Source: Sphingopyxis sp.
GTDB lineage: Bacteria; Pseudomonadota; Alphaproteobacteria; Sphingomonadales; Sphingomonadaceae
DNA length: 64,000 nt
Reading direction: 5' to 3'
Assembly: GCA_030145715.1 (NCBI GenBank)
Contig: JAIXHQ010000016.1
Span: forward strand, 1-64,000
In this document: one piece after another, positions 30,774-41,680 of the stretch
Numbering within the stretch: the first letter of the stretch is position 1
Layout of the letters: every line of letters begins with the position of its first letter
Made by a program: the position numbers and the translations under genes
The notes under the pieces: model-generated
The model's input: the letters and a program-made list of their open reading frames with translations, nothing else
The model's database searches: none
What the model was told of the DNA's origin: nothing

Positions 30774-31940
30774 TCAGAGCGATTTGTCGTAGATCTGATA
30801 CACCCGGTTGACCTTTGCCTCGATCGCGTCGGCCACCGCGTTCATTCCCTGATTATCGTCGAGAACCCAGCCGATGTCGCCGCGCCCCGCACCATAATCG
30901 CGCACGGCGTCGCGGCGGATATATTCGATCATCATGAAAGCGAGTGTGCTGGCCATGCGGCTGTTCTGCAATTTCTTTGTAACGCCCATCAACGGCACAC
31001 GCAGGATATGGCTTTGCGGCTTGCGCAGCCACCACAGCAGGCGCGCCCAATTGAAGGGGAGCAGCGACCCGCCCATGTCGGCCAGCAACTGGTTGATGTT
31101 CGGCAGCACGATCATGAACGCGACGGGTTCGCCATCGACTTCGGCCACGCGGATCAGGTCTTCGAACACAATGTCCTTCAGCTTTTTGCCGACATAGGCG
31201 ATTTCGCTGTCGGTCAATGGGACAAAGCCCCAATTGTCCGACCAGGCATCGTTGAGCAGCCCCATGATGAGCGCCGCTTCTTCGGCAAAGCGGCGCTTGT
31301 CGACATTGCGGATGCGGATGCGCGCGTTTTTGGCGCCTGCCGCGACGATACGGTTCACGAGCGGCGGAAAGCCGTCGGCGATCGCGACGTCATAGTTCAA
31401 AAGCTGTTTGACTGGCCGGTATCCGGACGCCTCAACCCAGCCGCGATAGAGCGGGCTGTTGTGGCCCATCATCACCGTCGGCCGGTTGTCGAACCCCTCG
31501 ATCAACAGGCCGGGCTCGTCCCAGATCGATATGGACAGCGGACCCAGTGAGCGATGCATCCCCTGACCCCGCAGCCAGTCCTCGGCGGCGAGAAGCAGGG
31601 CCTGTGCGGCGGGTTCGTCTTCGGCTTCGAGCAGGCCCCAGTTGCCGGTGCCGGGCCCCATGCCCTGTTCGGCGGGCTGCAAAAGCGCGAGGTCGTCGAT
31701 ATGCGCGGATATGCGGCCGACGGTGCGGCCGTCGCGGCGCGCCAGAAACTGGTGCGCCCTGCCATGCTCGAACCACGGATTCTTGCCGGGCGTCAGGAGG
31801 GCATATACCTCGCCCTTCAGCGGTGGCACCCATGCCGGATCGCCGCGATTGAGGCGATATGCAAGCTCAACGAACTCGCGCAAATCGGCCTTTGTCTGAA
31901 CCGGATGGATAGTAATCGGACCGTCGTTATGAGCACTCAT
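30774..31940 (-). CDS. GNAT-fold acyltransferase, probable bacterial ceramide synthase (bCerS)
   Basis: The 388-residue protein begins with a GNAT-like half (ITIHPVQTKADLREFVELAYRLN, AHQFLARRDGRTVGRISAHID) and has a second acyltransferase-like half (LRSLGPLSISIWDEPGLLIEGFDNRP, FLPFNWARLLWWLRKPQSHILRVPLMGV). In Caulobacter the enzyme that N-acylates the long-chain base is a GNAT-type protein encoded near spt. This gene's length and its position about 10 kb from spt, beside a desaturase, fit that enzyme. Orthology rests on family impression and context, not on alignment. It is divergent from the desaturase. Alternative: an unrelated GNAT protein. Confidence 0.62.
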   Translation of the reverse strand: MSAHNDGPITIHPVQTKADLREFVELAYRLNRGDPAWVPPLKGEVYALLTPGKNPWFEHGRAHQFLARRDGRTVGRISAHIDDLALLQPAEQGMGPGTGNWGLLEAEDEPAAQALLLAAEDWLRGQGMHRSLGPLSISIWDEPGLLIEGFDNRPTVMMGHNSPLYRGWVEASGYRPVKQLLNYDVAIADGFPPLVNRIVAAGAKNARIRIRNVDKRRFAEEAALIMGLLNDAWSDNWGFVPLTDSEIAYVGKKLKDIVFEDLIRVAEVDGEPVAFMIVLPNINQLLADMGGSLLPFNWARLLWWLRKPQSHILRVPLMGVTKKLQNSRMASTLAFMMIEYIRRDAVRDYGAGRGDIGWVLDDNQGMNAVADAIEAKVNRVYQIYDKSL

Positions 31941-32058: not shown

Positions 32059-33198
32059 ATGACGACGATTGCCACCCCCGCCGATCGGATAGCGACTCTG
32101 TTTGTGAAGTCGGTAACCAAGGCCGCCAAATCCGCGATTCCCGACGATATGGCGATGATCCGTGCCGCATCTGAACTGACGCGGGATTTGGTACAGCCGA
32201 ACACGCGCATTTATTGGACCGACTTTCTGGGTTCGACCCTTGTCGGTTATGCGGGCATCGCGGCGGCCATATTGGCGCCGTCGGTGATGTGGATGTTGGT
32301 CGCCGCAGCGGTCGCGATCGTCGCGCTCTATCGTGCCGGCAGCTTCATTCACGAACTCACCCATATTCGCAAAAACGCGCTGCCGGGCTTTCGCGTGGCG
32401 TGGAACGTTCTGGTCGGTGTACCGATGCTGATTCCATCCTTCATGTATGAAGGGAGCCACAGTCTGCACCACAACCGCACCAAATATGGCACGGTTGACG
32501 ACCCCGAATATCTGCCGCTGGCGTTGATGAAGCCGTGGACGGTCCCGCTGTTCGTCGCCGCCGCGGCATTGGCGCCGCTTGCACTGGTGTTTCGCTTTGC
32601 GGTCCTCACGCCGCTGTCGTTGCTGATCCCGCCGCTGCGCCGCGTCGTTGTCGCACGCTATTCGGGCATGATCATCAACCCGATGTTCCACCGCAAACCG
32701 CCGACGGGCGATTTTCGTCGCCAATGGGCGTGGCAGGAAGGCGGCGCCTGGGCCTGGTCCAGCTTGCTGGTCGCAGCGGGCGTGTTCGGCTGGGTGCCGC
32801 TGCGCGCTCTCGTCATTTTCGGCGTGATCGCCGCCGCTACGCTGGTGCTCAACCAGATCCGCACGCTTGTCGCCCATCTGTGGGAAAATGACGGATCGGT
32901 GCTGACCGTGACCGGCCAGTTCCTGGACAGCGTCAACGTGCCTCCGCCCGGTGTTCTGCCCGAATTATGGGCGCCGGTGGGGCTGCGCTATCACGCGCTG
33001 CATCACCTGCTGCCCGGCGTGCCCTATCATGCGCTGCCCAAGGCGCACCGCCGCCTCAAGGCCGCGCTGCCGGTCGATTCGCAATATCATGCCGCGAATT
33101 ACGACAGCCTGCCGAAACTGGTGGGGAACCTGATCGCCGGGTCGGCGAAGGGGGAGGGCGCCGATAATGTTGGTCGGGGGTCATCGACCCTACAGTGA
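32059..33198 (+). CDS. Membrane fatty-acid/sphingolipid desaturase-like protein
   Basis: A 379-residue membrane di-iron desaturase/hydroxylase. The three histidine boxes are present in order: HELTH (about 98-102), HSLHHN (about 135-139) and HALHHL (about 314-318), with hydrophobic pairs between them. The substrate is not evident. Its position divergent to the putative ceramide synthase and beside lptG suggests the acyl chain or long-chain base of a sphingolipid, but an ordinary phospholipid acyl desaturase is also possible. Confidence 0.8.
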   Translation: MTTIATPADRIATLFVKSVTKAAKSAIPDDMAMIRAASELTRDLVQPNTRIYWTDFLGSTLVGYAGIAAAILAPSVMWMLVAAAVAIVALYRAGSFIHELTHIRKNALPGFRVAWNVLVGVPMLIPSFMYEGSHSLHHNRTKYGTVDDPEYLPLALMKPWTVPLFVAAAALAPLALVFRFAVLTPLSLLIPPLRRVVVARYSGMIINPMFHRKPPTGDFRRQWAWQEGGAWAWSSLLVAAGVFGWVPLRALVIFGVIAAATLVLNQIRTLVAHLWENDGSVLTVTGQFLDSVNVPPPGVLPELWAPVGLRYHALHHLLPGVPYHALPKAHRRLKAALPVDSQYHAANYDSLPKLVGNLIAGSAKGEGADNVGRGSSTLQ

Positions 33199-33225: not shown

Positions 33226-34326
33226 CTATTCCTCGGTTCGGATCAGGATCATCTCGCCGATCAGGGCGAACAGGATGAACGGCCCCCACGCCGCGAGAAA
33301 GGGCGAATAGGCGCCCAGATCACCCATCGCGAGCGCGAAATTGTCGGCGACGAAATAAGCGAAACCCAGCGCCATGCCCAGGATCGCGCGCACGAACAGC
33401 TTGCCCGACCGCGCAAGGCCGAACGCCGCGACGGCGCCGAGCAGCGGCATCAGGATTGCCGACAGCGGTCCCGAAATCTTGTGCCACAACACGCCCTTCA
33501 GCGCGCCGACGGGCCGCCCCGCGGCTTCGAGGTCAGCGATCGCCGACTGAAGCTGAAGGAAGGGAATTTCGCTGCCGTCCACTTGCGCCAGCGTGAACTG
33601 ATCGGGGCGCACATTCCTGGCCGCGACGATCGTTCCCAATTGTTCGAGAGTCCCCGAACGGCGAACGAAGCGCCTCGCGTTGGTGAGTTCCCATCCGCCA
33701 CCCGCAATCGCGCGCGCGCTGTCGGCTGACAGCATCGACGACAATACGCCGCCGGTGCGCTCATAGATGGTGACATAGCCCAGAATGATCGCCGGGCCGC
33801 TGGTATCGACGGTCGTCGCATTGATAAGGTCATTGCCGTCGCGAACCCAGATATTGGTCCGTATCCCGCTGTCTTTCGGGACTTTCTTATACTCGACCTT
33901 TTGCCACGCGCTAAGCGCCGCGGTTGATCGGGTAACGATGCGTTCGTTAAAGACGAAGCTGATCCCGGCGACGAGAAAGGCGGCGAGGAACAAGGGGGCG
34001 AGCACCTGATGCGCCGACATTCCCGACGCCTTCATCGCGACGACTTCGCTGTTCTGATTGAGCGTGATCAGCGTCAGGATCGTCCCGAGCAACACCGAAA
34101 AGGGCAGGAAGGTCTCGATAATCTGGGGCAGCCGCATCCCGACATAACGCCACACGTCGGCGTTGCTGTTACCCGCCACGCCCAGGATCTTTCCGCTTTC
34201 GCCCAGAAGATCCAGCGTTTGCAGGATCAGCACCAGCGCGAACAGGATCGAGAAAGAGCGGACGAGGAACAGGCGGCCGACATAGAGCGCCATGGTACGC
34301 GACGGGAAAAAATGGAGTTGATGCAT
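33226..34326 (-). CDS. lptG: LptG, inner-membrane permease of the Lpt export complex
   Basis: A 366-residue LptF/LptG-family permease: three N-terminal helices (FLVRSFSILFALVLILQTLDLL, LPFSVLLGTILTLITLNQNSEVVAMKASGMS with the coupling-helix pattern), a periplasmic beta-jellyroll (about 120-265) and three C-terminal helices. With LptF and LptB2 it extracts envelope lipid from the inner membrane. Its ATG directly abuts the lptF stop codon. It lies between the desaturase and lipid-kinase genes of a putative sphingolipid cluster. Confidence 0.93.
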   Translation of the reverse strand: MHQLHFFPSRTMALYVGRLFLVRSFSILFALVLILQTLDLLGESGKILGVAGNSNADVWRYVGMRLPQIIETFLPFSVLLGTILTLITLNQNSEVVAMKASGMSAHQVLAPLFLAAFLVAGISFVFNERIVTRSTAALSAWQKVEYKKVPKDSGIRTNIWVRDGNDLINATTVDTSGPAIILGYVTIYERTGGVLSSMLSADSARAIAGGGWELTNARRFVRRSGTLEQLGTIVAARNVRPDQFTLAQVDGSEIPFLQLQSAIADLEAAGRPVGALKGVLWHKISGPLSAILMPLLGAVAAFGLARSGKLFVRAILGMALGFAYFVADNFALAMGDLGAYSPFLAAWGPFILFALIGEMILIRTEE

Positions 34327-35547
34327 TTAGGTCGAACTCTCCACCGCCGGTGCCTTGCGCTGGAACAGGCGGAACATGGCGCGAATTTTCTGCGCCGATT
34401 TGGCCGCGACGCGTTCGAGTGCGCCGATCGGCTGACCGCCGGGGACATGCGCGACGGTGTAATACATCCAGATCGCCAGCCCCGCGAACAAAAGGAAGGG
34501 GACCCACAGCGCGATCAGCGGATCGATCGTCCCGCGCGCGCCCATATCCTCCGCATATTGATTGATCTTGTGCTGCGTCACCAGCAGCACGATCGACAGG
34601 AAGACGCCGAGGGAGGAGGTGGATCGTTTCGGAGGGATGGCCAATGCGATGGCGATCAGCGGGATCAGGAACATCGACACGACCTCGACGATACGAAAAT
34701 GGAAATTCGCGCGCGTTTCGAGCCGGGTCTGTACCGACTGACGCGGATCCTTTCCGGCGACGAACAATTCGGGGATCGTCATTTCGCGATCGGCGCCGCC
34801 ACGGGTGCGGAACGCCTCGATCTTTGGCAGCGGGATCGGCAGGTCGTGGTTGTCGAACGTCAGCACGCGCGGCACCGCGAATTTCGGCGATTCGTGGATC
34901 AGCACGCCCTGCGACAGGCGCAGGATGATGGTGTTCGGATCGTCGGTGGCAAGGAACTGACCCCGCGCCGCGGTCGCCGAAACGCGCTGTCCGTCCTTGT
35001 TGTCGCCGCGGACGAAGATGCCGCGCAGCGATCGCCCTTCGTCATAGCTTTCCTCGATCCTGAGCGTCATGCGGTCGCCCAATTGGGTAAATTCGCCCAC
35101 CTTGATCGACGCGCCCAGTGCGCCCGACCGCAGTTCGAATTGCAGTCCTTCATAGGCATAGCGGGCGACGGGCTGAACAAAACCGACGATCGCCAGGTTC
35201 AGCGCGGCGAGCGCGATGGCATAGGCATAGGGCACACGCATCAGCCGCCCAAAGCTCATGCCGACACCCTTTAGCACGTCGAGTTCGCTTGACGTCGCCA
35301 GCCTGCGAAAGGCGAGCAGGATGCCCAGCATTAGTCCGATCGGAATGCCGAGCGAGAGATATTCGGGAATCAGGTTGGCGAGCATCCGCCACACGACGCT
35401 GACCGGCCCCCCTTCGGTCGCGACGAAATCGAAAAGGCGCAGCATTTTTTCGAGCACGAGCAGCATCGCCGACAGGACGAGGGTGCCCAGCATCGGAAAG
35501 AAAATGAGCCGCGCGATATAGCGGTCGATGGCAGGAAGCTTATTCAA
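34327..35547 (-). CDS. lptF: LptF, inner-membrane permease of the Lpt export complex
   Basis: A 406-residue partner of LptG with the same architecture: DRYIARLIFFPMLGTLVLSAMLLVLEKMLRLFDFV, PIGLMLGILLAFRRLATSSELDVLKGVGMS (coupling helix), a periplasmic domain (about 130-300) and C-terminal helices (VVSMFLIPLIAIALAIPPKRS). It is transcribed before lptG without a gap. In LPS bacteria the pair exports LPS. Sphingomonads carry glycosphingolipids instead, so the cargo here is probably a sphingolipid (inference). Confidence 0.93.
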   Translation of the reverse strand: MNKLPAIDRYIARLIFFPMLGTLVLSAMLLVLEKMLRLFDFVATEGGPVSVVWRMLANLIPEYLSLGIPIGLMLGILLAFRRLATSSELDVLKGVGMSFGRLMRVPYAYAIALAALNLAIVGFVQPVARYAYEGLQFELRSGALGASIKVGEFTQLGDRMTLRIEESYDEGRSLRGIFVRGDNKDGQRVSATAARGQFLATDDPNTIILRLSQGVLIHESPKFAVPRVLTFDNHDLPIPLPKIEAFRTRGGADREMTIPELFVAGKDPRQSVQTRLETRANFHFRIVEVVSMFLIPLIAIALAIPPKRSTSSLGVFLSIVLLVTQHKINQYAEDMGARGTIDPLIALWVPFLLFAGLAIWMYYTVAHVPGGQPIGALERVAAKSAQKIRAMFRLFQRKAPAVESST

Positions 35548-35678
35548 TCTTTCGTCGCCCCATCACCATGATTTGGCCGCAGTTGTTACCGATATGCCGA
35601 TTCAAGGGCGACAGGGACCCATGTCGGCGCGCGTTTTCGCTCGCGGGGATGGCTATAGCCTCTGGAGGTATTGAGGTC

Positions 35679-36185
35679 ATGTCGAAAATATATCTCGCCG
35701 GATTGCTTGCTGCCGGTGCGTTGATCGCGCCCGTCGCGGCGCAGGGTGCCGCACTGGGGCCGAGCGCCGCCCTGTGCAACAGCAACGCCACCGCCGTCCA
35801 GGTCGAGGTTCGCGGCTTCAAACAGCGCACCGGCACGGTCCGCGTACAGATTTACGGCGCGAACAACAGCTATCTGGAAAAGCGCAAATGGCTGGAGCGG
35901 ATCGATGTGCCGGTTTCGCGCGAGGGCACGATGGCGATCTGCGTCCCGGTCAAGGAACAGGGCAGCTATGTCGTTTCGGTTCGCCATGACATCAACGGCA
36001 ACGGCAAGTCGGACCGCAAGGACGGCGCGGGCCTGTCGGGAAATCCCGACATGAAGGTCAGCGACTTCATCTTCAAGCGCAAGCCAAAGCTGGCGCAGGT
36101 GAGTTTCGCGGTCGGCGACGCGACCAAGCGGGTGCCGGTGGTACTGAATTACGTCAACGGACTGTCTTTCGATCCGGTGAAATAG
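35679..36185 (+). CDS. Exported DUF2141 protein
   Basis: A 168-residue protein with a signal peptide (MSKIYLAGLLAAGALIAPVAAQGA) and a DUF2141 beta-sandwich. The DUF2141 core reads VEVRGFKQRTGTVRVQIYG, VPVSREGTMAICVPVKEQGSYVVSVRHDINGNGKSD and, later, MKVSDFIFKRKPKLAQVSFAV. It is periplasmic or outer-membrane-associated; the family function is unknown. GGAGGT lies about nine bases before the ATG at 35679. It is first in a tight operon with the lipid kinase (six-base gap) and Tam41-like gene, implying a role in handling or modifying the lipid product. Confidence 0.83.
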   Translation: MSKIYLAGLLAAGALIAPVAAQGAALGPSAALCNSNATAVQVEVRGFKQRTGTVRVQIYGANNSYLEKRKWLERIDVPVSREGTMAICVPVKEQGSYVVSVRHDINGNGKSDRKDGAGLSGNPDMKVSDFIFKRKPKLAQVSFAVGDATKRVPVVLNYVNGLSFDPVK

Positions 36186-36191
36186 GGACTT

Positions 36192-37166
36192 ATGGCCAGC
36201 GTCGCGCTTCTTTCGAATCCTCGCTCGACAGGTAATCGCGCCCTGTTGCCGCGCGTTCGCGAATATTGCGCGGCCCATCCAGATATTTTCCATTACGAGG
36301 TCGAGGATGTCGACCAGATCGAAAAGGCCGTCCGCACCATGGCGATGGTCGGTCCGCGCGTCGTCGTCATCAACGGCGGCGACGGGACGGTGCAGGCGGC
36401 GCTGACCGAGATTTACTCGGGTGGCCATTTCGATGGATCGCCGCCGCCGGTCGCCGTGCTTCCCAACGGCAAGACCAATCTGATCGCGCTCGATCTTGGC
36501 GCAGAGGGCAACCCGATCAAGGCGCTGCGCCGCGTCGTCGAACTGGTGGAAAGCGGCCGGCTGGAGGATCATGTGATCGAGCGCCAGTTGATTTCGCTCG
36601 ACAGCGGCGACGAAACGCGGCCGGTGCTGGGCATGTTCCTAGGCGGGGCCTATCTGGCCGATGTGATGATCTATTGCCGCGACCGTATCTATCCGCTGGG
36701 CCTGCCCAATGGGGTGTCGCATGTCCTGGCGGCCATCCTGGGCCTGTTCGCGATCATTTTCGGTATCGGTGGCGGGCGGTTCCCGCCCAAGCCGCAGCCG
36801 ATGACCGTGTCGCTGATCCGCCATGGGGAATTCGAGGGCAAATTCTCGCTGCTGATCGTCACGACGCTGGAAAAGCTGTTGCTCAGTATTCGTACCAGCG
36901 GGCCGCCCGGCAGCGACGGCAATATGAAATTGCTTGCGACCGACAGCAATGTCGGCGCCATGTTCCGGATGCTCGGCGCGACCTGGCGCGGAACATTGGG
37001 ACAAAAGCCGCTCGACGGTGTGCATTTCCAGCAGGGCGATGAAATCCGTATCGAAGGCGAACGATCGAGCGTCATTCTGGACGGAGAGCTGTTTCAGGCC
37101 AAGAACGGCATGCCGATCATCCTGACATCGACCCAGCCGGTTCCGTTCCTGCGCCTCGCCGCCTGA
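36192..37166 (+). CDS. Diacylglycerol/ceramide-type lipid kinase (YegS/LCB5 family)
   Basis: A 324-residue lipid kinase of the DAGK/sphingosine-kinase fold. The nucleotide site NGGDGTVQAAL (about 61-71) and VLPNGKTNLIALDLG (about 90-104) are clear, as is a C-terminal substrate domain with DGVHFQQGDEIRIEGERSSVILDGELF. A hydrophobic segment (HVLAAILGLFAIIFGIGGG) may contact the membrane. The Caulobacter ceramide kinase near spt belongs to this fold, so ceramide is a candidate substrate here; diacylglycerol is the alternative. It is tightly linked to a Tam41-like nucleotidyltransferase. Confidence 0.82.
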   Translation: MASVALLSNPRSTGNRALLPRVREYCAAHPDIFHYEVEDVDQIEKAVRTMAMVGPRVVVINGGDGTVQAALTEIYSGGHFDGSPPPVAVLPNGKTNLIALDLGAEGNPIKALRRVVELVESGRLEDHVIERQLISLDSGDETRPVLGMFLGGAYLADVMIYCRDRIYPLGLPNGVSHVLAAILGLFAIIFGIGGGRFPPKPQPMTVSLIRHGEFEGKFSLLIVTTLEKLLLSIRTSGPPGSDGNMKLLATDSNVGAMFRMLGATWRGTLGQKPLDGVHFQQGDEIRIEGERSSVILDGELFQAKNGMPIILTSTQPVPFLRLAA

Positions 37167-37172
37167 GCCGTC

Positions 37173-38033
37173 GTGCCTGAACTGATCGATCTGGTCCGCG
37201 ACGAATTGTCCGCCCCCGTCGACCCGCGCGCCGCAGCGATGGCGCGCGCGATCGCCGCGCAATATCCCGGCAGCGCGCGGGCGGTGCTTTTTTACGGAAG
37301 CTGTCTGCGCGAAAGCGAACTCGACGGGCTGATGCTCGATTTCTACCTGATCGTTTCCGATTATGGCGATGCCTATCCCCGGCGCTGGATGGCGGTGGCC
37401 AACCGGATGATCCCGCCCAATGTCTATCCGTTTCAGCACGACGGGCTGATCGCCAAATATGCGGTGCTGAGCGAAGCCGATTTCGACCGGCTGAACGGTG
37501 TCGAGACGCGCAACGTGTCGGTGTGGGCGCGCTTTGCCCAGCCGTCGCGGCTGGTGTGGGCGGTCGACGACACGGCGCGCGACCGCGCCATCGCTGCGGT
37601 GTCGCGCGCGGCCCCGACCTTGCTGGCGGCGGCGGGCGCGATCCCGGGCGAAGCTCCGCTCGACTGGTGGCGGCGCGCCTTCACGCTGACCTATTCGGTC
37701 GAGCTTCGCGCCGAAAGGACGAGCCGGGCCCAATCGGTGGTCGATGCCGATCCTGAAAGATATGAACGGTTCAGCCCGGCCTCGATAGCGGCGGTTCCGG
37801 CGGCGGCGCGCGGCGGCGGCTGGGCCCGGCGCCGATGGGAAGGAAAGCTGCTCAGCGTCGCGCGGCTGGCGAAGGCCAGCCTGACCTATGCCGGGGGAAT
37901 CGATTATCTGGCGTGGAAGATCAACCGCCACGCGGGCACGCGGATAGAGATCAAGCCATGGCAACGCCGCTGGCCGCTGGTCGCCGCGCTGACGCTGGTG
38001 CCCCGGCTGATGAAAAGCGGGGCGATCCGCTAG
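37173..38033 (+). CDS. Tam41-like nucleotidyltransferase, candidate lipid-phosphate cytidylyltransferase
   Basis: A 286-residue soluble protein. Residues about 40-64 (FYGSCLRESELDGLMLDFYLIVSDY) show a nucleotidyltransferase GS...D...D pattern. Further on come PPNVYPFQHDGLIAKYAVLSEADF (about 81-104) and VSVWARFAQPSRLVW (about 115-129). This order matches mitochondrial Tam41, which makes CDP-diacylglycerol from phosphatidate and CTP (YGSG...DFIF, KYGVIS, W..LY.AGRL..PV). It starts six bases after a lipid kinase whose product would be its substrate. No bacterial function is established to my knowledge. Confidence 0.65.
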   Translation: MPELIDLVRDELSAPVDPRAAAMARAIAAQYPGSARAVLFYGSCLRESELDGLMLDFYLIVSDYGDAYPRRWMAVANRMIPPNVYPFQHDGLIAKYAVLSEADFDRLNGVETRNVSVWARFAQPSRLVWAVDDTARDRAIAAVSRAAPTLLAAAGAIPGEAPLDWWRRAFTLTYSVELRAERTSRAQSVVDADPERYERFSPASIAAVPAAARGGGWARRRWEGKLLSVARLAKASLTYAGGIDYLAWKINRHAGTRIEIKPWQRRWPLVAALTLVPRLMKSGAIR

Positions 38034-40208: not shown

Positions 40209-41411
40209 TCAACCGATGATCTGGGTGCGTTTGCCCGCGCGTTCAAAGCGTGCAAGGATTTCGCCGACCTGTTCGATACTATGTTCGGCGCACAGCGAAC
40301 AGCGCAGCAGCGTCATTCCCGCGGGGGTTGCGGGCGGGCGGGCAAGGTTGACGTACAATCCCTCTTCCAGCAACGCCTCCCACATCAGCGCACCGCGTTC
40401 GAGGTCGGGCATGATGACCGCGATGATCGCCGACTGCGGTTCGTCGGTGCCCAGCGTGAAGCCAAGGTCACGCAGCCCCTTGTGCAGCACCTTTGAATTT
40501 TCCCACAGATGGGCGCGCTTGTTCGACCCGTGCATCAGCTTGCGGATGCTGGTCGCGGCGGTCGCGACGACGCTGGGCGGCAACGAGGCGGTGAACACAT
40601 AAGGACGGCAGACGAGCCGCATGATCTCGAACTTCGGATGGTTCGATACGCAGAAACCGCCGACCGTCCCGACGCTCTTGCTGAATGTGCCGATGACGAA
40701 ATCGACATCGTCCAGCACGCCCTGCGCTTCGGCGACGCCGCGGCCATGTTCGCCGATGAAGCCCATCGAATGCGCCTCGTCGACCAGCACCATCGCGCCG
40801 GCTTCCTTCGATACGCGGATCATTTCCTTGAGCGGCGCAATGTCGCCGAGCATCGAATAGACGCCTTCGAGCACGACCAGCTTGCCGGCGTCGGCGGGCA
40901 GGCGCTTCAGCCTTTTTTCTAGCGCCTCGACATCATTGTGGCGAAAGGCGACGATTTCGGCGTCGCCCATCTTGCACCCGTCATAGATCGACGCATGGCT
41001 GTCGATGTCGAGGATGACATAGTCGCCCTTGCCCGCGATCGTCGAGATGATGCCGAGGTTCGCCTGATAGCCCGTCGAAAACACCATGGCATGATCCATG
41101 GCGTAAAATTCCTTGAGCGCGTCCTCGCACTCCTTGTGGCCCTGATAGGTGCCATTGAGGACGCGGCTGCCGGTGGTGCCGCTGCCGAATTTTTCAAGCG
41201 CATCCTTGCCCGCGGCGATGACATCCTCGTCAAAGGTCATGCCCATATAATTATAGGTGCCAAGCAGGATCGTCTCGCGCCCGTTGCAGATCGCGACGGT
41301 CGGGGAAATCACCTTTTCCATCACCATGCTGAACGGGTCGGTGATGCCGGTCGACAGCAAGGCTTCGCGCTGCTGGATCAGCGGGTCGAATTTCGAAAAG
41401 AGGTCGGTCAT
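40209..41411 (-). CDS. spt: Serine palmitoyltransferase
   Basis: A PLP enzyme condensing L-serine with an acyl thioester to 3-ketodihydrosphingosine, the first step of sphingolipid synthesis. The 400-residue protein follows the Sphingomonas SPT closely: GTYNYMGMTFDEDVIAAG, VFSTGYQANLGIIS, DSHASIYDGCKMG, LVDEAHSMG, the PLP lysine in GTFSKSVGTVGG, and RPPATPAGMTLLRCSLCAEH near the end. The SPT call over KBL/BioF rests on this last motif and on the adjacent acyl carrier protein. It is cytosolic. It lies 32 bases downstream of the acp gene. Confidence 0.93.
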   Translation of the reverse strand: MTDLFSKFDPLIQQREALLSTGITDPFSMVMEKVISPTVAICNGRETILLGTYNYMGMTFDEDVIAAGKDALEKFGSGTTGSRVLNGTYQGHKECEDALKEFYAMDHAMVFSTGYQANLGIISTIAGKGDYVILDIDSHASIYDGCKMGDAEIVAFRHNDVEALEKRLKRLPADAGKLVVLEGVYSMLGDIAPLKEMIRVSKEAGAMVLVDEAHSMGFIGEHGRGVAEAQGVLDDVDFVIGTFSKSVGTVGGFCVSNHPKFEIMRLVCRPYVFTASLPPSVVATAATSIRKLMHGSNKRAHLWENSKVLHKGLRDLGFTLGTDEPQSAIIAVIMPDLERGALMWEALLEEGLYVNLARPPATPAGMTLLRCSLCAEHSIEQVGEILARFERAGKRTQIIG

Positions 41412-41443: not shown

Positions 41444-41680
41444 TCAGCCCTGCAGTTTTTCGACCGCTGCGACCAACTGGCCGACCGTCTCGATCTCTGC
41501 CTGCATGTTCATGCTGATGATGATGTCGAACGTGTCTTCGACCTCGGCGACGAAATCCATCACCGTCAGGCTGTCCCATTCGAGGTCGCCGGCAAAGCTG
41601 GTCGTGTCGGTCAGTGCGACGCCCTTTTTGTTGAAGGGTTCGATCAGGCCGAAAATCTGGTCGCGCAGGGCGGTGCTCAT
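41444..41680 (-). CDS. Dedicated acyl carrier protein for sphingolipid synthesis
   Basis: This 78-residue acyl carrier protein has the 4-phosphopantetheine Ser in LEWDSLTVMDFVAEVEDTF (DSL motif, about 35-37). It precedes spt in the same direction. In Caulobacter a specialised ACP beside spt supplies the acyl donor for serine palmitoyltransferase, so the same role is likely here. No acyl-ACP synthetase or ketodihydrosphingosine reductase gene is in the window. Confidence 0.88.
   Translation of the reverse strand: MSTALRDQIFGLIEPFNKKGVALTDTTSFAGDLEWDSLTVMDFVAEVEDTFDIIISMNMQAEIETVGQLVAAVEKLQG

Follow-up and report, generated by a model that had tools for sequence, protein, structure and literature searches.

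The window, a 64,000-nucleotide stretch of DNA from a Sphingopyxis sp., carries lptF and lptG on the same strand, abutting with zero gap, and surrounded by genes of sphingolipid metabolism. The features considered here, in order of position, are:

30774..31940, minus strand: ceramide-synthase-like gene (cerS, CC_1154-like), with a weak GNAT match only
32059..33198, plus strand: gene of the fatty-acid desaturase/hydroxylase family (PF00487), convergent with lptG
33226..34326, minus strand: lptG, sphingolipid-locus type (LptG2-like); TIGR04408 at 296.6 bits, cut-off 240
34327..35547, minus strand: lptF, sphingolipid-locus type (LptF2-like); TIGR04407 at 269.5 bits, cut-off 230
35568..36185, plus strand: DUF2141 protein gene (PF09912), divergent from lptF, its start probably near 35679
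36192..37166, plus strand: lipid kinase, probably a ceramide kinase (CC_1160/CpgB-like), from PF00781 (DAGK_cat) and synteny with Caulobacter
37173..38033, plus strand: CC_1161 (CpgA)-like nucleotidyltransferase of the phosphosphingolipid pathway, named by synteny
40209..41411, minus strand: serine palmitoyltransferase (spt), a firm call; NF047603 at 804.8 bits, cut-off 670
41444..41680, minus strand: acyl carrier protein, probably acpR, 32 bases upstream of spt; PF00550 at 38.3 bits
42533..43951, plus strand: MatE-family transporter, close to acpR-spt

Both proteins of the pair exceed the curated equivalog cut-offs and are thus members of the LptF/LptG permease family; the coordinates and names given by an earlier, sequence-only reading of this DNA were right. 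An AlphaFold2 model of the window LptF (pLDDT 90) has six transmembrane helices and a periplasmic beta-jellyroll, and in a Foldseek search its best PDB matches were LptF and LptG chains; the architecture of LptG was judged from its sequence.

A sphingolipid locus around the pair

The neighbours are those described in the sequence-only reading, a desaturase on one side and a lipid-kinase pair (the PF09912 and PF00781 genes) on the other, and its placing of lptF-lptG in a sphingolipid locus is borne out by the high-scoring spt and the acyl carrier protein gene just upstream, placed as in published acpR-spt operons. Reading outward from the pair, the desaturase is followed by the cerS-like gene, and on the opposite side the DUF2141 gene is followed by the kinase, the nucleotidyltransferase-like gene and then acpR-spt. 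The kinase contains GGDG, a motif described in bacterial ceramide kinase (PMC10331486). The protein encoded at 37173..38033 gave no match in a Pfam search; in the majority of sphingolipid loci its gene adjoins spt and the kinase, as it does in Caulobacter vibrioides (L158). A cerS-like gene likewise lies near lptG in most sphingolipid loci and directly after it in Caulobacter. Other neighbours are less widespread: a related DUF2141 gene is present in 18 of about 100 sphingolipid loci, counting the window, and phmmer matches to the desaturase occur in four of about 100, these being the window, two other Sphingomonadaceae and one further locus. Lying between cerS and lptG, the desaturase gene could encode a sphingolipid fatty-acid hydroxylase or desaturase. 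We also considered the MatE-family gene as a conserved flippase and rejected it, there being no match in any other sphingolipid locus.

The linkage of spt, cerS, ceramide kinase and the CC_1161-like gene to the pair is seen both in the window and in two genomes of the same genus (G180 and G255). Two short motifs of the sphingolipid-type LptF, searched for in named genomes, gave 80 loci, and in 78 of them at least one of spt, cerS, the kinase or the CC_1161-like gene was found near LptF/LptG; with this frequency of association, chance adjacency of lptFG to sphingolipid genes can be ruled out.

Two types of LptF-LptG and the apparent loss of the LPS-type pair

We constructed trees of 54 LptF and 54 LptG sequences, drawn from loci of genomes that differ in whether they have spt and lpxC. 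Each tree split, at 100% bootstrap, into 20 loci with sphingolipid genes and 34 without, the latter being the LPS-locus type (pepA-lptF-lptG-lptD-surA). The window pair falls in the sphingolipid-locus clade, alongside the extra copies found in genomes that have an LPS-type pair as well, and so by phylogeny it lies outside the LPS-export group. Both groups held at 99-100% when Caulobacter, gammaproteobacterial and E. coli sequences were added; the placement of E. coli as root of the two types was weakly supported (64 and 42). The Caulobacter pair (L158) fits the profile of the sphingolipid type far better than that of the LPS type. On these trees the sphingolipid-type LptF/LptG is a separate lineage and did not arise by conversion of the LPS pair within the sphingomonads.

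Copy number was compared across some 260 genomes, 143 of the class and 121 of the family. In the class sample, lpxC without spt is the commonest state (113 genomes, of which 106 have two LptF/LptG hits and one has four). Eight genomes carry both lpxC and spt, and seven of these have four or five hits, that is, two pairs. The 15 genomes with spt and no lpxC have two hits in fourteen cases and none in one, and the single pair is of the sphingolipid type in 14 of 14. Two pairs are thus found in 7/8 genomes with both genes vs 1/113 with lpxC only (Fisher 1e-9, a value that ignores relatedness and is descriptive only). An LPS genome without spt also has an additional, strongly divergent LptF/LptG pair scoring 76-82 bits (G015:C2:499772-501927).

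The source genome (2.83 Mb in 89 contigs, 88% complete) fits the single-pair pattern, the window LptF and LptG being its only two PF03739 matches. LpxC was found neither in this genome nor in any of 121 members of the Sphingomonadaceae, among which are two near-complete congeners, so that the incompleteness of the source assembly is covered by its relatives. LptF/LptG is present in 120 of the 121 family genomes, with exactly two hits in 111; the exception, G157, is 96% complete in 5 contigs and gave no LptF/LptG match at all. Of the two genomic findings that the sequence-only reading had held to speak against sphingolipid export, a second lptFG pair did not appear, and a complete lipid A pathway, judged through LpxC as the one lpx gene covered, gave no sign either. 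The rest of the bridge is retained: the source genome has LptB (356 bits), LptD, and LptC and LptA side by side, LptA being identified by PF03968 and LptC by a weak match that is above the Pfam cut-off and below that of TIGR04409. An MsbA-like full ABC transporter gene follows lptC-lptA on contig C4 (L065:4600-6414, minus strand), LptB being on another contig; it scores 388 bits on TIGR02203, below the cut-off of 602, and in a genome without LpxC its product is a candidate lipid flippase.

The place apparently vacated by the LPS-type pair can also be recognised. In LPS-type loci lptF-lptG lies nearly always between pepA and lptD-surA-pdxA-ksgA. The slot could be read in six LPS-free genomes, the source genome together with G009, G110, G027, G068 and G025, and in all six pepA adjoins lptD with no lptFG between them (in G138 lptD is not beside pepA and the slot is unreadable). 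It appears that the LPS-type pair was lost from its old position. The sequence-only reading had argued from the separation of the pair from other lpt genes, and the pair does sit apart; this is a weak argument by itself because lptFG of E. coli is likewise not beside the other lpt genes, and the informative point is its absence from the usual alphaproteobacterial pepA-lptD slot.

Probable function, cargo and lipid specificity

Taken with the locus and the genome content, the most likely reading is that the window LptF and LptG form the permease of a sphingolipid-dedicated transporter of the Lpt type, and we hold this with good confidence. In such a transporter two LptB subunits would power the LptF-LptG inner-membrane permease, which would pull an anionic sphingolipid out of the inner membrane on its periplasmic side; the lipid would then pass by way of the jellyroll domains of LptF and LptG to LptC, LptA and LptD, the last of which would place it in the outer leaflet. 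Assembly with LptB, LptC, LptA and LptD, the direction of transport and the cargo are what we infer, the partnership with LptB, LptC and LptA from gene presence. The sequence-only reading had proposed that the Lpt bridge was repurposed for sphingolipids. Sphingolipid export is indeed the best-supported function, but the trees assign the pair to its own clade and not to re-used LPS permeases; it looks as though what was lost is the LPS-type pair and what was re-used is the remainder of the bridge (LptB, LptC, LptA and LptD).

That earlier version, in which the usual permeases of LPS export moved and were put to use for sphingolipids within the sphingomonads, could draw on the presence of a single pair and the retention of the rest of the bridge in the genome. 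It is rejected by both the LptF and the LptG trees, in which the pair lies outside the fully supported LPS-type clade and groups with copies that coexist with LPS-type pairs, and we consider it very improbable. Another possibility is that the position in the sphingolipid locus is historical and the pair exports some other envelope lipid or glycan, such as a phospholipid, a hopanoid, sphingan or a residual LPS-like molecule. The sphingomonads G009 and G110, which keep the pair without the CC_1161-like gene, would be compatible with this idea, but we think it unlikely given that nearly all named loci have spt, cerS or the kinase close by, that LpxC is absent from the whole family sample (121/121), and that the two spt-bearing genomes without the pair are also without the CC_1161-like gene, which ties the pair to sphingolipid modification.

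Delivery might alternatively bypass LptC-LptA-LptD, with the pair and LptB acting as an inner-membrane extractor, and LptD then being retained to handle a different substrate or to keep the envelope intact. A bypass would allow for the faint or missing LptC signal of some LPS-free genomes, but among the 22 class genomes without lpxC, LptD is present exactly when LptFG is (17 of 17 with the pair, none of five without), which fits one pathway and leaves the bypass improbable. One observation counts against our preferred reading: G048, a complete alphaproteobacterial genome of 5.4 Mb with spt (locus L025) and a cerS-like gene, yielded no LpxC, LptF/LptG, LptC, LptD or CC_1161-like gene, and by its gene content some sphingolipid makers would manage without the LptFG system. 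In three genomes with neither LpxC nor spt (G042, G045 and G101) an LptF/LptG pair nevertheless lies beside LptD; the pair of G042 (L058), the only one of the three typed, is of the LPS type, and either lpxC was missed in these genomes or they may export another lipid.

In each of the seven dual-lipid genomes that have two pairs, only one LptD was detected. Perhaps such bacteria use one bridge with two loading heads, the two LptF-LptG types feeding different lipids into the same LptD; in sphingomonads the LPS head would then have disappeared, leaving the bridge to sphingolipid alone. We offer this tentatively, at a little under even chances.

As to the cargo, a profile of the CC_1161-like protein run on the class-sample genomes found the gene in 19 of the 21 that have the sphingolipid-type pair; the two spt-bearing genomes without that pair (G048 and G057) and all 11 controls without spt gave no match. 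The sphingolipid-type pair therefore tracks head-group addition better than it tracks spt alone. Since G009 and G110 keep the pair and have no CC_1161-like gene, the cargo is not simply ceramide phosphoglycerate. It is probably a head-grouped ceramide, of the ceramide phosphoglycerate type where CC_1161-like genes exist and probably a glycosphingolipid in relatives such as these two that have lost that gene and kept the pair. Glycosphingolipid is known from sphingomonads (Kawasaki 1994, as cited in PMC11324152); proposed as the cargo in the sequence-only reading, it is only one possibility here because the locus also carries phosphosphingolipid head-group genes.

A comparison of the lipid cavity had been suggested alongside that proposal. 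The first transmembrane helix (TM1) lines the cavity of the solved LPS transporter (PMC6744409). In LptF, TM1 carries E33-[RK]34 (window numbering) in nearly all sphingolipid-type sequences vs [TS]-Q in the LPS type, and the arginine equivalent to R33 of E. coli LptF is frequent in either type. The residue aligned with K40 of E. coli LptG is R in LPS types (94%) and mostly T, S, D or G in sphingolipid types. These differences in LptF TM1 and at the LptG K40 position are candidates for lipid specificity. The lipid A contacts K34 and R136 of E. coli LptG are uninformative, being missing from alphaproteobacterial LPS-type LptG also, and because the phosphate-binding residues of E. coli LptG differ in these LPS types too, the cavity comparison is only suggestive.

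Relation to known systems and wider meaning

The export idea itself is already known, published for Caulobacter with sphingomonad orthologs, and the window pair is a further member. Olea-Ozuna 2024 described CC_1168, CC_1156 and CC_1155 of Caulobacter as a second LptC, LptF and LptG, respectively, and proposed them as a phosphosphingolipid exporter, listing orthologs in Sphingomonas wittichii and Zymomonas mobilis; the paper states that transport was not investigated and that the route of bacterial sphingolipids to the outer membrane is unknown (PMC11324152). We found no later experimental paper on LptF2/LptG2 transport, in a search that had preprints and most subscription journals outside it. 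What is added here is the separate clade, the copy-number pattern, the empty slot, the retained bridge and the clue to the cargo.

The closest counterpart is LptF2/LptG2 (CC_1156/CC_1155) of Caulobacter crescentus, which falls in the same clade and follows the same locus logic; in Caulobacter vibrioides DSM 9893 (L158) the order spt, CC_1161-like gene, kinase, LptF, LptG, CerS is that reported for CC_1162 to CC_1154. Caulobacter makes LPS and has an LPS-type pair, whereas the window genome has only the sphingolipid-type pair, and the window locus differs further in its desaturase; no ortholog of CC_1158 or CC_1159 was identified beside the window pair. LPS-export LptB2FG, known from E. coli, Klebsiella and Shigella structures, shares the family, the fold, the paired F and G subunits and a genome with LptB, LptC, LptA and LptD. 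It differs in that the window genome is without LpxC and its pair is of a separate clade and outside the pepA-lptD slot, with another LptF TM1 motif and without conservation of a basic residue at the site of K40 in E. coli LptG. Like the acpR-spt loci of Rhodobacteria (PMC9386255), the window has acpR, spt, the kinase, the CC_1161-like gene and a cerS-like gene. Neither aasR nor cerR was identified in the examined part of the window; aasR is reported as distant in Sphingomonadaceae (PMC9386255).

The comparative evidence points to which genes to test for sphingolipid transport, and leads to the prediction that the permeases, not the bridge, set lipid specificity. Zosurabalpin is an inhibitor of LPS transport whose target is related to the LptF-LptG machinery, and the sphingolipid-type machinery bears on the selectivity of such inhibitors. 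For the Sphingomonadaceae, the arrangement suggests a way in which a whole bacterial family could drop LPS yet keep its outer membrane.
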